Origin: Candidatus Altimarinota bacterium
GTDB taxonomy: Bacteria > Patescibacteriota > JACMRA01
Assembly: GCA_012031925.1 (NCBI GenBank)
Contig: JAAUSE010000007.1
Coordinates: 1-34,995 of the forward strand
Direction of reading: 5' to 3'
DNA: 34,995 nt
Positions 1,750 to 18,272 of the stretch are shown piece after piece. Below the pieces are notes generated by a model. It was not told where the DNA came from. It saw nothing but the letters and a program-made list of their open reading frames with translations, and did no database searches. Position 1 is the stretch's first letter, and each line of letters starts with the position of its first letter. The translations under genes and the position numbers were made by a program.

Positions 1750-2502
1750 ATGACTACAAAAGCAATCGAAGCTGGAGATTTTGGATATGACGCGGTAGAT
1801 GGGAATTATCTTGAAGCAACTTCTATTACCCAGAATTATCATAATTGGATTCTTGACTCTATTCACAAACACATCGGCAAAAATATTCTTGAAGTTGGAG
1901 CGGGTGTAGGTTTGGTAACAGAAAAACTATCACAAAAATACTCTCAAAGAAATCTTTACTCTCTCGAACCATCCAAGGTAATGTACCCTACTTTACAAAA
2001 AAAAGTTCGCCAAGAAAAACTCAAAGTCAAAAATCTTTTCAAAGGCACAATCACTGACAACTTTGCCAAGCTCAAAAAACTTGAACTCAACTCCCTCATA
2101 TACATTAATGTCCTAGAGCATATCGAAGATGATCAAACTGAAATCAAAGAAGCATATAATTTGTTAGCCAAAAACGGAACACTTGTGACATTTTCGCCTG
2201 CTGGAATGTGGCTGTATTCACCTCGTGACAAAAGAACCGGACATTATCGCAGGTATTCTCTGGAAGAAAAAGTTGATAAGTTGAAAAAAGTAGGTTTTGA
2301 TATTGTCGAGGCTAGATATTTTGATATTTTTGGGAGCTTGTTATGGTGGGGCAAATTCAAATTACTCAAATCTGACAAAATCTCTCAGGGTCAAAGTGGT
2401 TTTTATGACAAAAGAGTTGTTCCTGTGATGCGCGCAATCGAACCCAAGTGGTTGCCGTTTGGCAAAAATATTATTGTTATAGGTAAAAAGAAAAAATTAT
2501 GA
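1750..2502 (+). CDS. Class I SAM-dependent methyltransferase
   Basis: Rossmann-fold methyltransferase of the Methyltransf_11/23 type. Motif I is ILEVGAGVGLVTEKL, and the motif IV region reads NVLEHIEDD. The chosen start ATG 1750 gives MTTKAIEAGDFGYDA; an in-frame TTG at 1714 lies in the preceding terminator/-35 sequence and is rejected. The substrate is unknown. Its stop overlaps the next gene's start (ATGA at 2499-2502), so it is translationally coupled to a membrane glycosyltransferase, which suggests it modifies a lipid- or glycan-linked substrate. Confidence 0.85.
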   Translation: MTTKAIEAGDFGYDAVDGNYLEATSITQNYHNWILDSIHKHIGKNILEVGAGVGLVTEKLSQKYSQRNLYSLEPSKVMYPTLQKKVRQEKLKVKNLFKGTITDNFAKLKKLELNSLIYINVLEHIEDDQTEIKEAYNLLAKNGTLVTFSPAGMWLYSPRDKRTGHYRRYSLEEKVDKLKKVGFDIVEARYFDIFGSLLWWGKFKLLKSDKISQGQSGFYDKRVVPVMRAIEPKWLPFGKNIIVIGKKKKL

Positions 2503-3958
2503 AATTTTCAAAAAAATTCTGGTCAAAATTTTCCATTACAATATTAATTTGTTCGATTTTACTCAGCGGATATTTTGCCTTATGGAACAAATATTGGAGT
2601 GACGGCGATGAATTTCATTATCTAGTAATGTCAAATAGTTTTATTCAAGATAAAGATTTTAACCTAAAAAATGACTACGAAAACAAAGAATATTTTTCAC
2701 ATCATAGTCATGAAGAAAATCCACATGGATATAAGACAAAATTTGGTCAGTTACGCAGTCATCATAATATCTTATTACCTATAATTGTTGCTCCTGGATA
2801 TGTTGCTAGAAACATTTTAGGGGCAAGATTAGTGGTTTGGGCAATATCTATACTCAGTATTTTTGCTTTGCTTTTATACTTAAAGTACCACAGTTTTAGT
2901 TCAGCTTCCTCCAAGCTAATTTCTTCACTTTTTATACTTCAATTACCAATTATTACATATTCTCAATATGTTTATACAGATCTTATCTCAGGATATTTGA
3001 TGTTATGGGGAACTCTTCCGCTACTTTCTTATCTCAAAAAACCAAGTAATTGGAAATTATTTGTATCTTCCTCAATTTTTGGTTTGGCATCATTCTTACA
3101 CATAAAATTAGTCCAATACACATTTTTAATTCTAGTCTTTTTTAGCATATATATACTTTCCAAAAAACTTCAAATCAAAATAAAATCAATAAAAACTATT
3201 TTCTTAACTAAAAGTAGCTACGTATTTTTGTTGAAGGTATTTGGTTTGTGGTCTTTTTTCCAGTTATTATTTACATTTACTATGTATCGTTGGTATGGAG
3301 AATTCTCTCCAGCAGCTGCTCATAATCTACTTTCACAAAATAGCAGTGAGTACAGCTCATTTTATACATATAACCCAGTCAGGATTGTTCAAAATTTCTT
3401 TGGTCTATTCTTTGGGGGTGAATCTGGTCTATTAGCAAACGCTCCACTCTTTGTGTTGTTATTTGCAGGATTAATTATTTGGAAAAATAAAAACTTTCAA
3501 TCTTTTTTTATTGTTGCTATACCAAGTATTATCTTCTTTTTTAGACAAAGTATGTTTCTCAAATGGAGAACATGGGGACCTCCAGCAAGATACACTATAG
3601 TCTTTTTACCGTTGTTAATACCAGCAATTAGTTACTCTATATTAGCAATTTGGCCAAAAAAATTGGTAAAATCATTGTTACCACTATAACTTTGATCACA
3701 ATAGCTTTTTATTATCTTCTTTTCCAAGTCCAAAAAAGTGGTTACCCGCTTTGGATCAACACTAATCAATATTGGGAATCAGTTTTTAACAAACTAAACC
3801 TACCACCAAATATTAACAAAATTACATTTATTGATTTGGTAAATCCAAACTACAATGATATAATCAAAACAGCAGTCGCTACAATTTTTATAGCCTTAAT
3901 TTCTTTTTACATCATACAACAATCAAAAAATATTGACCAAAAAAAATCTTCTTCCTAA
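2499..3958 (+). CDS. GT-C type membrane glycosyltransferase (ArnT/PMT-like), frameshifted
   Basis: Polytopic membrane protein with an early periplasmic loop containing the acidic segment WSDGDEFHYL, as in the GT-C/GT39 superfamily, which transfers sugars from polyprenyl-phosphate donors outside the membrane. About ten hydrophobic segments can be seen. The first frame ends at 3689 in KKLVKSLLPL, but from about 3650 another frame continues with KKIGKIIVTTITL to 3958. Adding one A to the seven-A run 3656-3662 joins them into one protein of about 486 residues. A combined gene is more likely than two. The specific sugar is unknown. Confidence 0.7.
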
Positions 3959-3967
3959 GATTAGCTT

Positions 3968-4225
3968 ATGCCTAAAAAAACTGCAATCAAATCCACCACC
4001 AAATCAGTTTCCAAGCCCAAACCAACTACTCAAAAAACCACTCAAACCAAAAAAGAGAATCTAGACCATCAACACGAAAATTTCTCTAAGTTCCTAATCA
4101 CTGTAGTAATTTTTTTGGGAATAGTGGTCTTAGCTTTGTTCTCAATTCTATGGGAGCAAATGTACGAGAACGGTGACTCTAGTCAAAAAAAAGAAAAATC
4201 TTCATTGATGAAATACAACAACTAA
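3968..4225 (+). CDS. Small single-pass membrane protein, paralogue 1 of a tandem family
   Basis: 85 residues: a Lys/Thr-rich basic N-terminus, one membrane segment (FSKFLITVVIFLGIVVLALFS), then WEQMYE and a short charged tail. The membrane segment and WEQMYE match the next genes, but the ectodomain present in those is missing. The stop is only 22 nt before the next start. This is either a truncated copy or a bare anchor. No known function recognised. Confidence 0.65.
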   Translation: MPKKTAIKSTTKSVSKPKPTTQKTTQTKKENLDHQHENFSKFLITVVIFLGIVVLALFSILWEQMYENGDSSQKKEKSSLMKYNN

Positions 4226-4247
4226 AATTAAGATAAAGAATAGAATT

Positions 4248-5159
4248 ATGCCAAAAAAACCAACTCCAACCAAACACACCCATACAAATTTCTCCAAATT
4301 CTTAATCACTGTAATTATCTTCCTGTCAGTTGTTGTGCTAGCTCTATTCTCAGTATTATGGGAGCAGATGTACGAGGTGGAAGACATGATTCCAAAAGAA
4401 GAACCAATGATGGTTGAATCTAACATTGAGATAGAAGATCCAAGTTTGCCTGAGTTATCTACTAATATTAACTCGGAGGAAATCTCCCAATCAACGGGAG
4501 AAGAATGGACTGGAGAGATAACTTTAGCACCTACTAATAAAAATCGTTTTGATAAATCAAACACACAATTTTGTGGAGGTAATGGCATTCAGTATATCAA
4601 AAGAATTGAGGGAAAACAAGAATTTGATGAAGTGATGTATATATCTAACAGAAACTTATTCGATGAAGAGAAAACACTTCAAAGATTCAACTCCATAGAT
4701 AAATTCATCAACAACAATATCGAAGTTCTTACAGCTGATAAAATTAATACTGACAAACCAATCGCTGAAATATCAAATCAAGTTAATGAGCAATATTTTA
4801 CAGAATTTAAAATCTTAGGATCCACCTCTTTTCCTTGTGAATTTTATGGTTTTGGTGAATTTAGTTTAATTCCTTTCAGTATCAACTATCCAGGTGCGGA
4901 CTCTGCTTTTATATTTGAAAGAGGTGTTTTTGCCAAAAAATCTGATAATTATATATACTTAGAAAAAATCAGAAATGAAGACATTATCAATTTGAGAGTA
5001 AAATACTCGAATGAATGTAATGAAGAAGGTGTTAGCTTTGAAGGAATGGATCCTAGAAACACTATATGTGTCAATCAAAAACTAAGCCGAGACTCTGGTT
5101 ACAAGCAAATAATTACAGACCAAGCGCAATCACTAATCGAAACATTCAAATTACAATAA
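4248..5159 (+). CDS. Membrane-anchored surface protein, paralogue 2 of a tandem family
   Basis: 303 residues. A basic N-terminus with PTKHTHTNFSKF is followed by one membrane segment (about residues 18-39), WEQMYE, an acidic linker (about 44-90) and an extracytoplasmic domain with four Cys. ISNRNL, GADSA and DNYI.L recur in paralogue 3, so the ectodomains are related although very diverged. Ends in FKLQ; paralogue 3 ends FQLQ. The next gene starts 1 nt after the stop, so they form one operon. Not a type IV pilin: there is no prepilin cleavage motif. Function unknown, probably surface-exposed. Confidence 0.75.
   Translation: MPKKPTPTKHTHTNFSKFLITVIIFLSVVVLALFSVLWEQMYEVEDMIPKEEPMMVESNIEIEDPSLPELSTNINSEEISQSTGEEWTGEITLAPTNKNRFDKSNTQFCGGNGIQYIKRIEGKQEFDEVMYISNRNLFDEEKTLQRFNSIDKFINNNIEVLTADKINTDKPIAEISNQVNEQYFTEFKILGSTSFPCEFYGFGEFSLIPFSINYPGADSAFIFERGVFAKKSDNYIYLEKIRNEDIINLRVKYSNECNEEGVSFEGMDPRNTICVNQKLSRDSGYKQIITDQAQSLIETFKLQ
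4266..4376 (+). repeat. Conserved anchor module, copy A
   Basis: This 111-bp segment encodes PTKHTHTNFSKF through the membrane helix to YE. It aligns without gaps to 5182-5292 with about nine mismatches, although the sequences downstream are unalike at DNA level. More diverged copies lie near 4070-4170 and 5990-6070. Confidence 0.8.
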
Positions 5160-5160
5160 T

Positions 5161-5967
5161 ATGCCAACAAAAAGCACCAATCCAACCAAACACACCCACA
5201 CAAACTTTTCCAAGTTCTTAATCACTGTAATTATTTTCCTATCAGTTGTTGTGCTAGCTCTTTTCTCAGTCTTATGGGAGCAGATGTATGAGAGTCAAGA
5301 AAAATCCCAACCTGTAGAAGAATTAGAAGAAACAGCCTTAATTGAAAACATCCCAGCCGAACCAAGCTTATCTTCTGAGATCTCTATGGAAGAGGTTGAA
5401 GGCTCGCAAGAAGAAGAGCAAACTGGAGTTATTAAAATCAGGCCACTAAAATTTTCTCAATTCAAAAAAGAAATAATTACTGAAAATATTACTAAAAATA
5501 GCCCTCTACCTAATTGTCTTATTGGACACACAACATACAGACTCAATGAAGGTGATGAAACCTTTCAAGATAACTGGCTCATGGAAATATCAAACAGAAA
5601 CTTAAATTTCATAGAAAGATACTCAAAATCAACTAACGAAATTTTGGATATTTTCGATTCTAATTTCAACGATAGTGTTATTGACAATATTAGTGTTCAA
5701 AGTATTTTTGATTATGCTTCAGTGCAATGCGCAGCTACAGGGGTTGGGAATATACCTCTAAAAGAAACCGATTTTGATTTCAAGTTAGTAGAATATGAAG
5801 GAACAGACAGTGCAATAATGATATACGATTCTGTTAACTTTAGTAAAGTATTTATATTAGCAAGACAGGGAGATAACTATATCAAGTTATCCAAAGATTC
5901 TGCTAGTAATTTTGGTACTCCAGATCAAGTAGCCGAGCGACTTTTAGAATTATTCCAATTACAATAA
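5161..5967 (+). CDS. Membrane-anchored surface protein, paralogue 3 of a tandem family
   Basis: 268 residues with the same plan: PTKHTHTNFSKF, one membrane helix, WEQMYE, an acidic Glu-rich linker (about 43-85) and an ectodomain carrying two Cys, EISNRNL, GTDSA and DNYIKL. The ATG follows the previous stop by 1 nt, and the next paralogue follows 1 nt after this stop. The anchor DNA is almost identical to paralogue 2 while the ectodomain is strongly diverged. Function unknown; surface location inferred from topology. Confidence 0.75.
   Translation: MPTKSTNPTKHTHTNFSKFLITVIIFLSVVVLALFSVLWEQMYESQEKSQPVEELEETALIENIPAEPSLSSEISMEEVEGSQEEEQTGVIKIRPLKFSQFKKEIITENITKNSPLPNCLIGHTTYRLNEGDETFQDNWLMEISNRNLNFIERYSKSTNEILDIFDSNFNDSVIDNISVQSIFDYASVQCAATGVGNIPLKETDFDFKLVEYEGTDSAIMIYDSVNFSKVFILARQGDNYIKLSKDSASNFGTPDQVAERLLELFQLQ
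5182..5292 (+). repeat. Conserved anchor module, copy B
   Basis: Gapless 111-bp match to 4266-4376 with about nine mismatches, several of them synonymous. It marks a recent duplication or gene conversion of the anchor-coding part. Confidence 0.8.
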
Positions 5968-5968
5968 T

Positions 5969-6360
5969 ATGCCAAAAAAACCAAATCCAACCAAACACAC
6001 CCACACTAATTTCTCCAAATTCTTAACAACCATTGTAATATTTTTATCAATAGTGGTTCTAGTTCTTGGCTGGTTAGTCCTCCAGAATTTTGTACAAGAT
6101 TCCAAAGATAATACAATTATCATCTCCCTGACCGAAGAAGCAATTATACATTCGATGAGTACTGTCCTATAACTAATGATATAATAAACTCAACAATCAA
6201 TGGAAACACAATTAAAGATTTTGACCCTGGTTATGAAGACAAAGATGGTAAAATACGTTTTTTGTTCAGAATCTTAACTAATATAGACAGTGAAAGCATT
6301 GAGTCTAATTATGAAATAAAAGAAATCAGACAAATCATGGAAAATTCTAGATTCCAATAA
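5969..6360 (+). CDS. Membrane-anchored surface protein, paralogue 4 of a tandem family, frameshifted
   Basis: Begins with PTKHTHTNFSKF and the membrane helix, but lacks WEQMYE. The first frame stops at 6172 after IIHSMSTVL. A second frame carries on as FDEYCPITNDII to TAA 6358-6360 and ends in SRFQ, resembling the LQ ends of paralogues 2 and 3. Adding one T to TT 6151-6152 joins the two into about 130 residues. The ectodomain is shorter than in its neighbours. Function unknown. Confidence 0.6.
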
Positions 6361-6420: not shown

Positions 6421-7737
6421 ATGCAATTCTTAAAACCAAATAACGAAACATTCAAAAAAATAAAAAATGTTATTTTTTTGAATGCTGACATAATCATACT
6501 CAGTTTACTTATACAATCATTAGTATTAATTATTATATTTGTTTCATCAGCTTATCTACCGCCAAATGGTGGTTATGAAGGAAGGTGGAGAACAGAACCA
6601 ATAGCAGATATCGCATCATATATTAGAAACATTTCAATAACATGGGATAGTAAACATTACTTAGAAATTGCTGAAAACTGGTATAGTCCCACTAGATCAT
6701 CTCATTATGCATTCTTCCCTCTACTCCCTATACTAATTAGAGGATTGACATTTATATTACCATTCTTTAGTACTAATACTATAAGCATAATTCTCTCATG
6801 GATTTTATATCTAACATTAGCTTTTTTTCTAAAAAAAGCTTTTAAAGTTTTAAGACCAGGCGCCAATAACTTTAATTTAATAATAACCACATTAATATGC
6901 CCTTTTAGTGTATTTTATGTTTTTGTATACACTGAAAGCTTGTTTGTAATTATCTCTTTAATAAGTTTATTTTCATATCAAAGATTTAAACATATTTCTA
7001 ATAGAAGTAGGTATTTACACCTCATGTTGTTACTGATAAGCTCATTTGCTTTAAGCACAACTAGAAATCTTGGCGTTTTCCTTGGGATTAGCATTCTACT
7101 TGCTGAAATTGTGTTTACAGTTATTAAGAAAAAAAACGCTGACCATAATCATTTGTATAATAATGATTTACTCTCAGGATTTGCGGTTGCAGCTTCAAGT
7201 ATACTTGGATTATTCGCTGTCTTTAGTATAGGATATTTAACAACAAAAAACCTATTTGTTAGTTTCGAAGTTCAGAAGTACTGGAGAAGAGAAACTAATT
7301 TAAATATTTTTAATACAATCTATGAATCTATAAAACAATTCACCAACCCTCAAGAAATATATTCAACTTGTGATAACTATAGGGATTGTGTTTTTGGTGC
7401 AACATATCCACTTTTTGCTTTATTAATAATTCTTACAGTATTTTTCCTATTCTCCATAGTAATTTATAAAAAATACAATATTGATAACAAAATTGAGATT
7501 AACCCTACAATTCTTGTTAGCATAATCTTTTCATTATTCTTACTCATCGTACCTATCACAAAAGGATTGGGGAGTTATAATAGATACATAATTTCAACTC
7601 CAATATATTACCTAGGGTTACCAATACTCATAAATAGATTTATCCCAAAAAAATTTAGCCCTTTAATCTTAATTATTTCAAGTTACTTTTTCGCTATCTT
7701 TATAATCCTTTTTAGCTTACACTATTGGATAGGATAG
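6421..7737 (+). CDS. PIG-V-like (Mannosyl_trans2) GT-C mannosyltransferase
   Basis: 438-residue polytopic membrane protein. The first extracytoplasmic loop has ITWDSKHYLEIAENWY (about residues 72-88), the WD-x-x-H/Y pattern of PIG-V/Gpi18-type mannosyltransferases, followed by FFPLLPILIR. These enzymes add a sugar, often mannose, from a polyprenyl-phosphate donor. The next gene is a polyprenol-phosphate sugar synthase type GT2, which could supply that donor. Roughly ten membrane segments. The exact acceptor cannot be read from sequence. Confidence 0.75.
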   Translation: MQFLKPNNETFKKIKNVIFLNADIIILSLLIQSLVLIIIFVSSAYLPPNGGYEGRWRTEPIADIASYIRNISITWDSKHYLEIAENWYSPTRSSHYAFFPLLPILIRGLTFILPFFSTNTISIILSWILYLTLAFFLKKAFKVLRPGANNFNLIITTLICPFSVFYVFVYTESLFVIISLISLFSYQRFKHISNRSRYLHLMLLLISSFALSTTRNLGVFLGISILLAEIVFTVIKKKNADHNHLYNNDLLSGFAVAASSILGLFAVFSIGYLTTKNLFVSFEVQKYWRRETNLNIFNTIYESIKQFTNPQEIYSTCDNYRDCVFGATYPLFALLIILTVFFLFSIVIYKKYNIDNKIEINPTILVSIIFSLFLLIVPITKGLGSYNRYIISTPIYYLGLPILINRFIPKKFSPLILIISSYFFAIFIILFSLHYWIG

Positions 7738-7762: not shown

Positions 7763-8728
7763 ATGTGTATCAAAAAAAATAGCTTAAAAAAACTAAAACT
7801 GATTATTCAAATCAACTGCTTCAACGAACAAGACAGTCTTCCAATTAGTTACCAAGATCTTCCCAAATCAATACCCGGAATCGATATTATCGAAACCCTC
7901 ATTGTAGATGATGGCAGTACAGATCGAACTAGTGAAATTGCGGCCAAACTCGGTGTTAATCATATAGTTCGCCACAACGGTAACCGTGGCCTGCCCGCTG
8001 CTGTCAACACCGGAGTACTCAAGGCTATTCAAGAGGGCGCAGATATTCTTGTGAATACTGATGCTGACAATCAGTATGAGGCCCGAGATATTGCCAAACT
8101 AGTTAAGCCAATTGTCGAACAAAAAGCTGATTATGTATATGGTCAAAGACCAATTATGGATATCGATGAATTCTCTACTATCAAAAAATACTTACAGCTC
8201 GCAGGAGCCAAAGTAGTAGGAGCTATCACTGATCTTGAACTTAATGACGCTGCCAGCGGCTTCAGGGCTATCTCACGTGAAGCCATGCAAAAATATTTCC
8301 TACTAGCCCAATATTCTTCACCTCTAGAAGGACTTATCCAAGCGACCATGAAAGGACTTACAGTAGATGTTGTTGATGTCAGAGTCAACCAGTTCCTTCG
8401 CCCCTCAAGACTTTTCAAATCCAAGACCAAATACGTCTTCAAATCTGCTACAATAATCTTAGATAACATCCTCATCTACAGACCCTTGCAAACTTTCCTA
8501 ACTCTTGGCACAATATTCTTCATAATCGGCATAACCCTTACAGCTTTCAGAATCTACCTACTCAATTACACAACAACATCCAGTTCCCACCTAACCTTAC
8601 TAATGGCCTCAATAATGACCTACATCCTCTCACTACAACTATACTTCCTAGGTCTATTTGCCAGACTACAAAGAGCCAACAAACTTCAAAGCGACGAAAT
8701 ACTTTACAGAATCAATACAAAAATATAA
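7763..8728 (+). CDS. GT2 glycosyltransferase, polyprenol-phosphate mannose/glucose synthase-like
   Basis: 321 residues. GT-A fold domain with VDDGSTDRT (about 48-56), GNRGLPAAVNTG and the metal-binding DADNQY (about residue 97), then GFRAISREA. Two membrane helices at the C-terminus (about 240-265 and 275-297) match DPM1/GtrB-type enzymes, which load a sugar onto polyprenyl phosphate at the inner face. It follows the GT-C gene by 25 nt and is probably co-transcribed, a usual donor/acceptor pairing. Confidence 0.85.
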   Translation: MCIKKNSLKKLKLIIQINCFNEQDSLPISYQDLPKSIPGIDIIETLIVDDGSTDRTSEIAAKLGVNHIVRHNGNRGLPAAVNTGVLKAIQEGADILVNTDADNQYEARDIAKLVKPIVEQKADYVYGQRPIMDIDEFSTIKKYLQLAGAKVVGAITDLELNDAASGFRAISREAMQKYFLLAQYSSPLEGLIQATMKGLTVDVVDVRVNQFLRPSRLFKSKTKYVFKSATIILDNILIYRPLQTFLTLGTIFFIIGITLTAFRIYLLNYTTTSSSHLTLLMASIMTYILSLQLYFLGLFARLQRANKLQSDEILYRINTKI

Positions 8729-10401: not shown

Positions 10402-11922
10402 ATGAAAACCCAAAAGTTTTCCATCAAAAAAGTAACCGGCCTTCTAGTTGGAGGTATTGCAGCAATTTTCATAGCACAAGCAGAAGCTAAGGCTGAAGTA
10501 GATAACCTACCATTCACTATTGGCAAACAAGCAAGAATCAGTAGAGGATACTATTCTGCTAACAATCCTAATGTTGATTGTACAGACCATGGATGTGGGT
10601 CCAGAAGAGCAATAGACTTCGCAACCAACGAAAACATTGACATTATTACCGTTAGGTCAGGAACAGTGCTAAACAAAGGTTGTTATACAATAACTGGATA
10701 TGGCTGTTTTGTAATGATTAAGAATAATCTAGGTAGTGTTGATACCTACGCTCATCTTGCGAATAATAGCATCACCGCGCCTGCTATTGGACAGCAAGTT
10801 AGCAAAGCACAAAAACTTGGAGTAATCGGTAATACAGGCAACTCAACTGGACAACATTTGCATTTTGAAAGAAATCCTGCCAATGGTAACTCAAATCAAC
10901 CAAATTATTCATCAAGTATAGTGGTTGATTTCGCTGAAATCAATGAACAACAATCCGAAGGTCAATGGGTTGTTTCACAAAACGATGGGAATTCCTCTAG
11001 TCAAGTTAAGTTTGATTTTGGTGATCTAGATGTTGATAGTAGATCAAACATCGCATGGCGACAAGGTAATAATCTTGTTACATGGATGATTGATGATGAA
11101 ACTGGAACCAATATTAACAATCCAGTTGTGAATAACACAATTCCTGCTGGATTTAAAATCATAGGTTATGCACAACTAACACGCCCCAACTGGGGATCTA
11201 ACAAGAACATTATCTTACAAAACCCAACTACTGGAGCAACCAAATATTGGGTAAATAATCCCAATGGAACATTTCATAGTGAAGTAAGTCTTCCATTTAC
11301 ATTTGGTTGGCAACTATTAGGCCCTGTAAAGGGAATAAAAGTTGGGCAACACGTATTAGATGGTTTATTATGGAAAAGTACAACGAGCGGAGATGTGGTT
11401 CTATGGAGATTCAACGATAGTCATAACTATCACGACTCAATTACACTTCCAAATATGAACGATTGGGCATATTTAGGATCCGGCTCTTTTCAATACAATC
11501 TTGACTCTCATCAACTTTGGCGAAGAAATTCTGACAACCAATTAGCCTTTTGGATTATAAACTCTAATGGCCAACTAGTTGGAACAAATTGGATCAACCA
11601 AAACCCAAGCAATTGGGAATTTGTTGGACTTGGACGGTTCACATCTGAACTTCTAGATAATCTTATCTGGAGGAGCGGAACTGGTACTCATCTCTGGAAA
11701 TTCAACCCTAATGGGAATGGTCAATTCCAAAATCATGTTTCTCTACCTAATACAGTAGGTTGGGATCCTATTGGTGTTGGTAAATTCAGAAACACAGACC
11801 CCAAAGAAAACTTAGTTTGGAAAAACCCAGCAGGTGAAACTGTTCATTGGTTCTTCAACGATAATGGTACATATGCTGGAACAACTCAATTCAGCAACAC
11901 CAATGGTTGGAGTCACAAATAA
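10402..11922 (+). CDS. Secreted M23 (LytM-like) metallopeptidase with C-terminal FG-GAP/VCBS-like repeats
   Basis: 506 residues. Signal peptide about 1-32 (ending AEAKAEVD). The M23 domain follows: H63 and D72 in DHGCGSRRAIDFA fit the spaced H...AxDF variant of the first zinc motif, then YAHL (H118) and STGQHLHFE (H152, H154). It should cleave peptidoglycan cross-links. Residues about 200-506 hold about six Trp-rich repeats of some 50 residues (LIWRSGTGTHLWKF, LVWKNPAGETVHWFF), like bacterial FG-GAP/VCBS propeller repeats, probably for binding. An AGAGG site precedes the ATG and a strong terminator follows. Likely surface or secreted wall hydrolase. Confidence 0.85.
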   Translation: MKTQKFSIKKVTGLLVGGIAAIFIAQAEAKAEVDNLPFTIGKQARISRGYYSANNPNVDCTDHGCGSRRAIDFATNENIDIITVRSGTVLNKGCYTITGYGCFVMIKNNLGSVDTYAHLANNSITAPAIGQQVSKAQKLGVIGNTGNSTGQHLHFERNPANGNSNQPNYSSSIVVDFAEINEQQSEGQWVVSQNDGNSSSQVKFDFGDLDVDSRSNIAWRQGNNLVTWMIDDETGTNINNPVVNNTIPAGFKIIGYAQLTRPNWGSNKNIILQNPTTGATKYWVNNPNGTFHSEVSLPFTFGWQLLGPVKGIKVGQHVLDGLLWKSTTSGDVVLWRFNDSHNYHDSITLPNMNDWAYLGSGSFQYNLDSHQLWRRNSDNQLAFWIINSNGQLVGTNWINQNPSNWEFVGLGRFTSELLDNLIWRSGTGTHLWKFNPNGNGQFQNHVSLPNTVGWDPIGVGKFRNTDPKENLVWKNPAGETVHWFFNDNGTYAGTTQFSNTNGWSHK

Positions 11923-15881: not shown

Positions 15882-18272
15882 CTATTGAGACATTCTAAGA
15901 CTAATCCTATTATTAAAATCAATATTAGTCTGAATAACCTTACCATCAAAAATAATTGATGAAATATACTTCTTACTAAAATCAAAAGATCGCCATGGGG
16001 TCCAATTAACTATATCATTTGAAGTTCTGGTATAAATTACATTATCAGTACCTACTACTGTTTGAATTAATGAATTGTTTAAAATCAATATGTATGGGTT
16101 AGTTGAAGTAATTCCACTCCTCACCCAACTATTCCATGAAGTCCCATCTGCAGATGATCTAGTATAGATACCATTGTCAGTACCACGAACGGTTTGAAAT
16201 ATTCTGTTGTTAAATTCTATCATGTTGACATAATCAGCTGCAACACCCACATAGCTCCGACCTTCCCAATTAGGTTCTATATATAAATTTACTTCTTCAG
16301 AAGAAGAATTACCTAAAGTATCAAATACTCTAACAGATGCTATATAATTGCCTAATTCGTTAAAAGCATAATCAAAATTTTCTTGTAATGGTAATGTATT
16401 ATCAGAAGATACAATACTATCATCAATAAGAAACTCAACCCTATCTAGATCAATATTTTGAGCTTTTTCAATACTGACCTCAAATGCATTCAACACACCA
16501 TTTTGTAACCAATTATTTTTTGATGGTGGATTTTCAAAAGTAACTTTCGGTGCTGATAATAAAGACATTACTTCATCTAAATTAATTAATCCATTTCCAA
16601 ATTGTGTATCCTTTCCACTAACCCCTACATCTTTAGACGTTTGAGAAAATATTGACCTAACTGATGCTGTATCCAAATTACTATCCACGCTAAGCATCAA
16701 TCCAACAACTCCGGCTACTTGGGGGCTGGCGTAGCTGGTTCCTTGCCCTACCACAAAGCTGTTGTTATTGGCACACACTCCTCCTGGTACTCCACACTGA
16801 ATCAAAACACCACTTGGACTTGGAGAACCATCTCCTACTGGAGCCACTACGTCAATGTGGTTTCCAAAGTTACTGTAGCTACTTCTGATTACCCCGCCTG
16901 TACTTGCACCATAATCACTAGCACCAACAGCAATTACATTACCAAAACCAGCAGGGTACATCACCGCATTGTTAGCTTCGGCAAAATATCCTGGTGTTTG
17001 AACTCCGTTACCATCCCAATCACAATTACCTGTCCAGACAGCACAGTTTCCACTAGCTGCGACCATAATTACACCTTGAGCGGCAACCTCATTAATCGCA
17101 TCTTCCAAATAGCTATCATAAAAAGGAGTTCCAAGACTCATATTAATCACTTTAGCCCCTTTTTCAGCAGCATATCTAATCGACTCCGCAATAAAAAATG
17201 TATTAAAAGCTTGCCCATGAACTGCAATAGGCAAAATCGTTGTATTGTAAGCAACCCCAAGCCCACCAATGCTATTATCTTGCATGGCAATTGTGCTAGT
17301 TACTTTGGTACCATGCCCTTGCTCATCGAATTGAGATCCAATCTTCCTACAAAAATTAATGAACTGCCCACCAATATTAAAACTCTGGTAGTATTCACCA
17401 GCAGGACAAGTGTTATTTCCTTGATGATAAAACATCATTGAGTTAGCATTATCAAAATTTGCCCCCACTAAATCACTAGCTGAAGTATTCACCCCAGAAT
17501 CAATTACAGCAATCTTGACACTAGGATCACCGCCACATTTCCTTCCAGGTGTAGTCTCACCACAAGTCACACCTTCAAATGCTCCGAGAACATCCCAACC
17601 ACTCTCTGCACTAATTCCAGAAGCTTGATCTTTGTACCCCCATTGTTGAGAACCAAAATGCTGATCGTTAGGCGTATAAAAATGCTTATAATTATAAATT
17701 GGTTGAACAATCTCAACATCTTCGTCTTGACTAAGTTCTTTAATTGTTTCTTCCAGATCGACATTTTCACCCAAATCAAAAACTACAGTGTCATCGTTTT
17801 CTGATACCACCACAACCTCATCTTCGGAGGTGACTTCTTCATCATTTCTCCCGCCAAATCCAAATCTAAACCCACCAAGCAAATCTTCAAAAAATCCCTT
17901 TTCCCCATTAGAAACAATTTCATCAAGAGTGTTTTCAACATTTTCTTTGCGACCTTCTTTACCACCTTCTTTTACTTTTACCAATAAACTATCTTTTTCT
18001 ACGGCATCAGATTCAAAATCCAAACTTTCCACCGCTTTTTGAAGCTCTACAGATTCATCAATATCAGCTTCATTATTACTCTCATCAATAACCTCCTTAG
18101 GTATATCAATTTCAGTATCTATTGAATCATCTTCACCCACAAACACCGTCTCATCATCTACAGGCAAAGTTTCTTGGGCAAAAGAAAGTACGTTAGTACC
18201 AAAAAGCTGCAAGCAAAGCAAAATACTTAAAAAACTCACTAACCCTGTCTTGAGAAATTTGGATAAATACAT
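15882..18272 (-). CDS. Secreted subtilisin-like (S8) serine peptidase
   Basis: 796 residues. Signal peptide 1-32, a very acidic stretch (about 35-95), then a prodomain (about 95-200) containing an inserted FFEDLLGGFRFGFGG and Asp/Glu-rich run. The catalytic domain has AVIDSG (D258), GHGTKV (H320), AASGN (N409, oxyanion hole) and GTSYASP (S513). A beta-sandwich-like region follows (about 570-665). The last 125 residues hold about three repeats of the form NNxIxQTxxGTDNxIYTRxSxDxxxWxxW, probably a binding module. No membrane anchor is seen at the C-terminus, so it is secreted or wall-associated. Own promoter upstream. Confidence 0.9.
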   Translation of the reverse strand: MYLSKFLKTGLVSFLSILLCLQLFGTNVLSFAQETLPVDDETVFVGEDDSIDTEIDIPKEVIDESNNEADIDESVELQKAVESLDFESDAVEKDSLLVKVKEGGKEGRKENVENTLDEIVSNGEKGFFEDLLGGFRFGFGGRNDEEVTSEDEVVVVSENDDTVVFDLGENVDLEETIKELSQDEDVEIVQPIYNYKHFYTPNDQHFGSQQWGYKDQASGISAESGWDVLGAFEGVTCGETTPGRKCGGDPSVKIAVIDSGVNTSASDLVGANFDNANSMMFYHQGNNTCPAGEYYQSFNIGGQFINFCRKIGSQFDEQGHGTKVTSTIAMQDNSIGGLGVAYNTTILPIAVHGQAFNTFFIAESIRYAAEKGAKVINMSLGTPFYDSYLEDAINEVAAQGVIMVAASGNCAVWTGNCDWDGNGVQTPGYFAEANNAVMYPAGFGNVIAVGASDYGASTGGVIRSSYSNFGNHIDVVAPVGDGSPSPSGVLIQCGVPGGVCANNNSFVVGQGTSYASPQVAGVVGLMLSVDSNLDTASVRSIFSQTSKDVGVSGKDTQFGNGLINLDEVMSLLSAPKVTFENPPSKNNWLQNGVLNAFEVSIEKAQNIDLDRVEFLIDDSIVSSDNTLPLQENFDYAFNELGNYIASVRVFDTLGNSSSEEVNLYIEPNWEGRSYVGVAADYVNMIEFNNRIFQTVRGTDNGIYTRSSADGTSWNSWVRSGITSTNPYILILNNSLIQTVVGTDNVIYTRTSNDIVNWTPWRSFDFSKKYISSIIFDGKVIQTNIDFNNRISLRMSQ

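Follow-up and report, generated by a model that had tools for sequence, protein, structure and literature searches.

Silent sites point to recombination in the anchor-encoding 5′ block of a tandem array of putative membrane proteins in a Patescibacterium

Four adjacent genes in a Patescibacterium encode proteins that share a membrane anchor and differ outside it, which raises the question of whether the anchor has been exchanged between the copies by recombination or conserved by selection on the protein. The window, which is the whole stretch of 34,995 nucleotides that was analysed, is a complete contig of a 1.07 Mb genome, 80.6% complete. The array comprises four open reading frames (ORFs), all on the same strand, with the following features.

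3968–4225, + strand: copy 1, 85 aa, with a long Lys/Thr-rich N-terminal tail, the conserved anchor (NFSKFLITVVIFLGIVVLALFSILWEQMYE), and 18 residues past the anchor.
4248–5159, + strand: copy 2, 303 aa, with a predicted N-in signal anchor and an acidic 260-residue exterior (net charge −19, 4 Cys).
5161–5967, + strand: copy 3, 268 aa, with the same anchor protein sequence as copy 2 and an acidic 224-residue exterior (net charge −22, 2 Cys).
5969–6172, + strand: copy 4, a 67-aa ORF, with codons 1–19 near-identical to copy 2 and the rest of the anchor diverged.
6133–6360, + strand: out-of-frame continuation of copy 4, 75 open codons with a stop at 6360, ending ...IRQIMENSRFQ.
5132–5172, + strand: gene-junction repeat (repeat family D3), consisting of the end of copy 2, its stop codon, the 1-nt spacer, and the start of copy 3.

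The intergenic gaps are 22, 1, and 1 nt, and a repeat finder assigned the anchor region to a single four-copy repeat family of 125 nt (at 4044, 4252, 5168, and 5973), in which copies 1–4 are 65, 100, 89, and 68% identical to copy 2, respectively. Matches to the array in its own genome were confined to the four copies. These results bear out a sequence-only reading of the locus, which had described a four-gene tandem family with genes spaced 1–22 nt apart. In addition, the 2/3 junction (5132–5172) and the 3/4 junction (5940–5980) are alike, with 83% identity over 41 nt. Scans for promoters and terminators returned no more sites than scans of shuffled sequences.

Each copy contains one strongly hydrophobic helix (maximal 19-residue hydropathy, 2.8–3.1), and the N-terminal tail is basic in every copy, with a charge of +3 to +7. 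By the positive-inside rule, these features suggest that the array proteins are single-pass membrane proteins with the N-terminus inside and the C-terminus outside, and that they would be exposed at the surface. The anchor resembles an uncleaved signal anchor, and a V-L-A motif in the helix may permit cleavage by signal peptidase.

The copy 1 ORF stops 18 residues past the anchor, and with only 22 nt left before copy 2, no remnant of an exterior is present. For copy 4, the frame changes near 6130–6150, soon past the anchor, with another frame reading through from approximately 6133 to 6360, where its stop agrees with the end of the cluster given in the sequence-only reading. BLASTP found no similarity between this continuation and the ectodomain of copy 3; by its position, it probably represents what is left of the copy 4 exterior. 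The frame break may be real or may stem from an error in assembly. Homopolymer-driven phase variation was considered and rejected, since no long homopolymer occurs in the region of the break. The earlier statement that one copy lacks an ectodomain thus holds for copy 1, which is anchor-only, but copy 4 also lacks an intact exterior.

Over the 30 anchor codons from NFSKF to MYE, the DNA of copies 2 and 3 has 8 mismatches in 90 nucleotides, all in third positions, with no amino acid change; the earlier count of about nine differences in 111 positions is correct. The description of the anchors as near-identical is apt for this pair but not for the other copies. The copy 1 anchor shares 87% of its residues with copies 2 and 3, with silent sites at saturation (dN 0.075 for copy 1 versus copy 2), and copy 4 has 3 differences from copy 2 in the first 58 nt (19 codons), after which identity falls abruptly to ~50%. 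Because copy 1 keeps 87% of the residues despite silent-site saturation, the comparison of these sequences shows the anchor protein to be under purifying selection as well.

With the anchor removed, the ectodomains of copies 2 and 3 align over ~200 columns at 29% identity, with E = 1e-5 for the pair, and the motifs picked out earlier (ISNRNL, G-DSA, and DNYI) all lie inside this alignment. On the evidence of this alignment the two ectodomains are homologous and therefore represent old paralogues, not unrelated domains.

The age of each part of the genes was assessed from silent sites. Identical codons were counted where the aligned amino acids agree, and the number expected at saturation was taken from the codon usage of the remaining genes of the window. 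Between copies 2 and 3, 28 of 38 codons are identical within codons 1–43, compared to 16.0 expected at saturation (P = 3e-5), whereas the ectodomain has 31 of 72, compared to 32.1 expected. Between copies 2 and 4, the corresponding values are 15 of 17 within codons 1–19 (8.2 expected, P = 4e-4) and 2 of 9 in the remainder of the transmembrane stretch (2.9 expected), the latter being background. When the order of sites along copies 2 and 3 was shuffled, the permutation p was 0.002. The young blocks are as follows.

4248–4376, + strand: young block of copy 2 (tail and anchor), DNA 89% identical to copy 3.
5161–5292, + strand: young block of copy 3 (tail and anchor).
5969–6026, + strand: 58-nt young block of copy 4, differing from copy 2 at 3 positions.

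The nucleotide break between copies 2 and 4 is sharp, at nt 58. Between copies 2 and 3 it falls at the end of MYE, and this edge is less well defined, as the likelihood is highest for a break at copy 2 codons 71–74, not at codon 43.

Copy 1 serves as an internal control. Its anchor has 12 of 24 codons identical to copy 2, compared to 10.1 expected, that is, the silent sites are saturated even though the protein is 87% identical, and thus no codon-level constraint acts on the anchor. The excess of shared codons in copies 2–4 therefore reflects an ancestry of the 5′ block that is more recent than that of the rest of these genes. The silent sites thus show, within this set of paralogues, that the 5′ block of copies 2–4 was exchanged or homogenised by recombination. 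Since the anchor dS between copies 2 and 3 is ~0.55, the exchange was not very recent. These comparisons support the proposal of gene conversion at the anchor, since the silent sites of the 2/3 and 2/4 5′ blocks are young, in contrast to the saturation of the remaining parts of these genes. Uniform divergence along the whole gene, which had been named as contrary evidence, was not the case, the 5′ block being young against a saturated remainder. As a whole, the earlier interpretation is partly supported: it stands for conversion at the anchor; it needs amending in that, as copy 1 reveals, the conservation of the anchor is partly due to purifying selection.

We consider it reasonably probable, from four sequences in one incomplete (80.6%) genome, that the locus is a tandem array restricted to its lineage, that it encodes N-in proteins crossing the membrane once, and that duplication, loss, and recombination drive its evolution. 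The 5′ block, comprising the cytoplasmic tail and part or all of the anchor, was exchanged or homogenised among copies 2, 3, and 4. The route may have been gene conversion of this block or, equivalently, the attachment of exteriors that were already old and divergent to an anchor that had been duplicated; the same pattern is expected under both. The anchor would then be a functional module that displays differing exterior domains outside the membrane, and its helix could, for example, pair with that of another copy or with a partner shared by them all. Copy 1, with its anchor alone, may be a partner subunit, and copy 4 is probably decaying.

An unlikely alternative is that purifying selection alone shaped the array, with an old duplication, a constrained anchor, and a freely drifting exterior, without recombination. 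The comparison of copy 1 with copies 2 and 3 fits this account exactly, the anchor protein being kept with saturated silent sites, and the ectodomains are still recognisably homologous. However, selection at the protein level does not preserve silent sites, and the same copy 1 comparison reveals no constraint that would fix the anchor codons. Selection alone is contradicted for copies 2–4, because their 5′ blocks (2 versus 3 and 2 versus 4) hold significantly more identical codons than saturation predicts.

To a similar degree, we doubt that the array is the degenerating and now functionless relic of a surface family that was once larger, in which copies 1 and 4 would be pseudogenes. An intact exterior is absent in 2 of the 4 copies, copy 4 is broken in frame, and no orthologues were found among relatives, all of which would be expected of such a relic. 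On the other hand, the strong constraint on the copy 1 anchor (low dN with saturated silent sites) and the intact reading of copies 2 and 3 across 268–303 codons are not.

A recent duplication of the whole gene giving copies 2 and 3, followed by fast diversification of the exterior by positive selection in a surface arms race, is disfavoured and still less probable: it would account for a near-identical anchor beside a 29% identical exterior, but the silent sites of the ectodomain should then match those of the anchor in age, yet they are saturated, and it would require a mutator hitting all exterior sites, with no RVT_1 in the array's own genome. A target of a diversity-generating retroelement was rejected on the same ground, the genome (80.6% complete) giving no reverse transcriptase (RVT_1) match.

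Returning to the reading of a lineage-restricted array shaped by duplication, loss, and recombination, we searched for relatives. No homologues were found in the array's own genome beyond the array itself, in 58 relatives, in five genomes of the same family, or in 380 genomes of the phylum, nor in GTDB contigs, IMG/VR, or plasmids; the scans of these collections rely on exact short patterns, by which distant relatives may be missed. Two matches were judged to be due to chance: one (genome G036) falls on a transmembrane helix inside a multi-spanning protein that resembles O-antigen polymerase, and the other (G329) covers a short stretch interrupted by a stop codon. Pfam and NCBIfam gave no credible match for the array proteins, a PDB sequence search gave none below E = 0.5, and literature searches returned no description of such a family. 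One-to-one orthologues in relatives, the other finding named as contrary evidence, were absent from all relatives searched, including the 380 genomes of the phylum, and neither a second strain nor allelic sequences turned up. These results suggest that the family is probably lineage-restricted.

A possible fold for the exterior came from structure models. The copy 3 model (mean pLDDT 45.7, low confidence) had several PsbP/Mog1-fold entries among its top structure matches (8z9d, 1vr8, 2lnj, 2xb3, 1tu1, 4tmd, and 7cu9), none below E = 0.001, with a best Foldseek E of 0.017. The copy 2 model (pLDDT 34.7) gave no PsbP-fold matches and is uninformative. PsbP_2 (PF18933) is present in many Patescibacteria genomes, and the array proteins resemble PsbP/Mog1-like proteins in the N-terminal anchor, the strand-rich exterior, and a C-terminal helix ending in ...FKLQ/FQLQ. 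They differ in that PF18933 (cut-off, 27 bits) gave no match at E ≤ 10 to the full proteins or to the exteriors of copies 2 and 3, and that profile-profile comparison with the PsbP_2 proteins of the phylum gave none either. PsbP_2 was not found in the array's own genome at E ≤ 0.01. Membership of PsbP_2 was thus rejected at the sequence level, and a PsbP/Mog1-like fold of the exterior is a lead only, taken from the model.

Type IV (pre)pilins were also rejected. The prepilin peptidase motif has Gly at −1 and Glu at +5 of the helix, whereas all four copies have (E/T)-N-F-S-K-F at this site, with no Gly and no Glu5, and Pfam pilin families gave no match to the array proteins.

Gene conversion is known in tandem families of surface proteins that keep the N-terminus while the exterior diverges, among them neisserial pilE/pilS and the variable lipoproteins of mycoplasmas. 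The array resembles these in its conserved N-terminal membrane part, divergent exterior, and tandem copies, as well as in the mosaic of silent-site ages inside one gene, and it carries the recombination tract sought in a tandem surface family driven by gene conversion, with silent sites of two ages (p = 0.002). In contrast, no layout of expression site and silent cassettes was seen, copies 2 and 3 are full-length, and the anchor looks like neither a lipoprotein signal nor a class III prepilin signal. Exchange is known here from the paralogues of one genome. The conversion event is of an interesting but ordinary kind, in a family that is probably lineage-restricted.

The Patescibacteria that have been studied live attached to other cells, and attachment is central to their life; to our knowledge, their surface proteins are poorly known. 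A family with no relatives found, whose anchor is conserved as a protein and appears to be exchanged between copies, is a candidate lineage-specific contact protein. The silent-site comparison, with copy 1 as the internal control, also gives an easy means of telling conversion apart from selection in tandem paralogues that have no relatives. There is a slim chance that the locus is a display array maintained by recombination, with a conserved transmembrane pairing module that also serves as an anchor-only subunit and with exteriors shuffled at the gene junctions. If so, variable contact proteins would arise without a host immune system as the driver.

Around the array, and on its strand, lie dTDP-rhamnose genes together with genes for a methyltransferase, a family-2 glycosyltransferase (GT2), and multi-spanning membrane proteins; the nearest are as follows.

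2499–3958, + strand: upstream multi-spanning membrane protein, stopping 9 nt before copy 1.
6421–7737, + strand: downstream multi-spanning membrane protein, with no Pfam match.
7763–8728, + strand: downstream GT2.

The upstream membrane protein weakly resembles a putative glycosyltransferase family, at a level below the cutoff. By position only, a cell-surface role beside glycan synthesis is plausible, and the array proteins may act in, or be substrates of, the surrounding surface-glycan pathway. In a relative (G004), the upstream membrane protein has a homologue with different genes behind it, and the downstream GT2 and upstream methyltransferase have theirs together on another contig; the island is thus rearranged in G004 relative to the array genome. 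The array was not found in G004, which is 68% complete.

The upstream membrane protein gene is seemingly frameshifted at an A7 run (3656–3662), and the ORF at 3650–3958 matches the C-terminal part of its G004 homologue (E = 4e-7), which is also split, at a different place. The frameshift may reflect sequencing error, slippage, or decay. An M23 peptidase is encoded at 10402–11922, and in G004 an M23-like protein with FG-GAP-like repeats (L025:9457–10866) adjoins the GT2/methyltransferase block. A subtilase-family protease of 796 aa at 15882–18272 has below-cutoff similarity to mycosin-type proteases.
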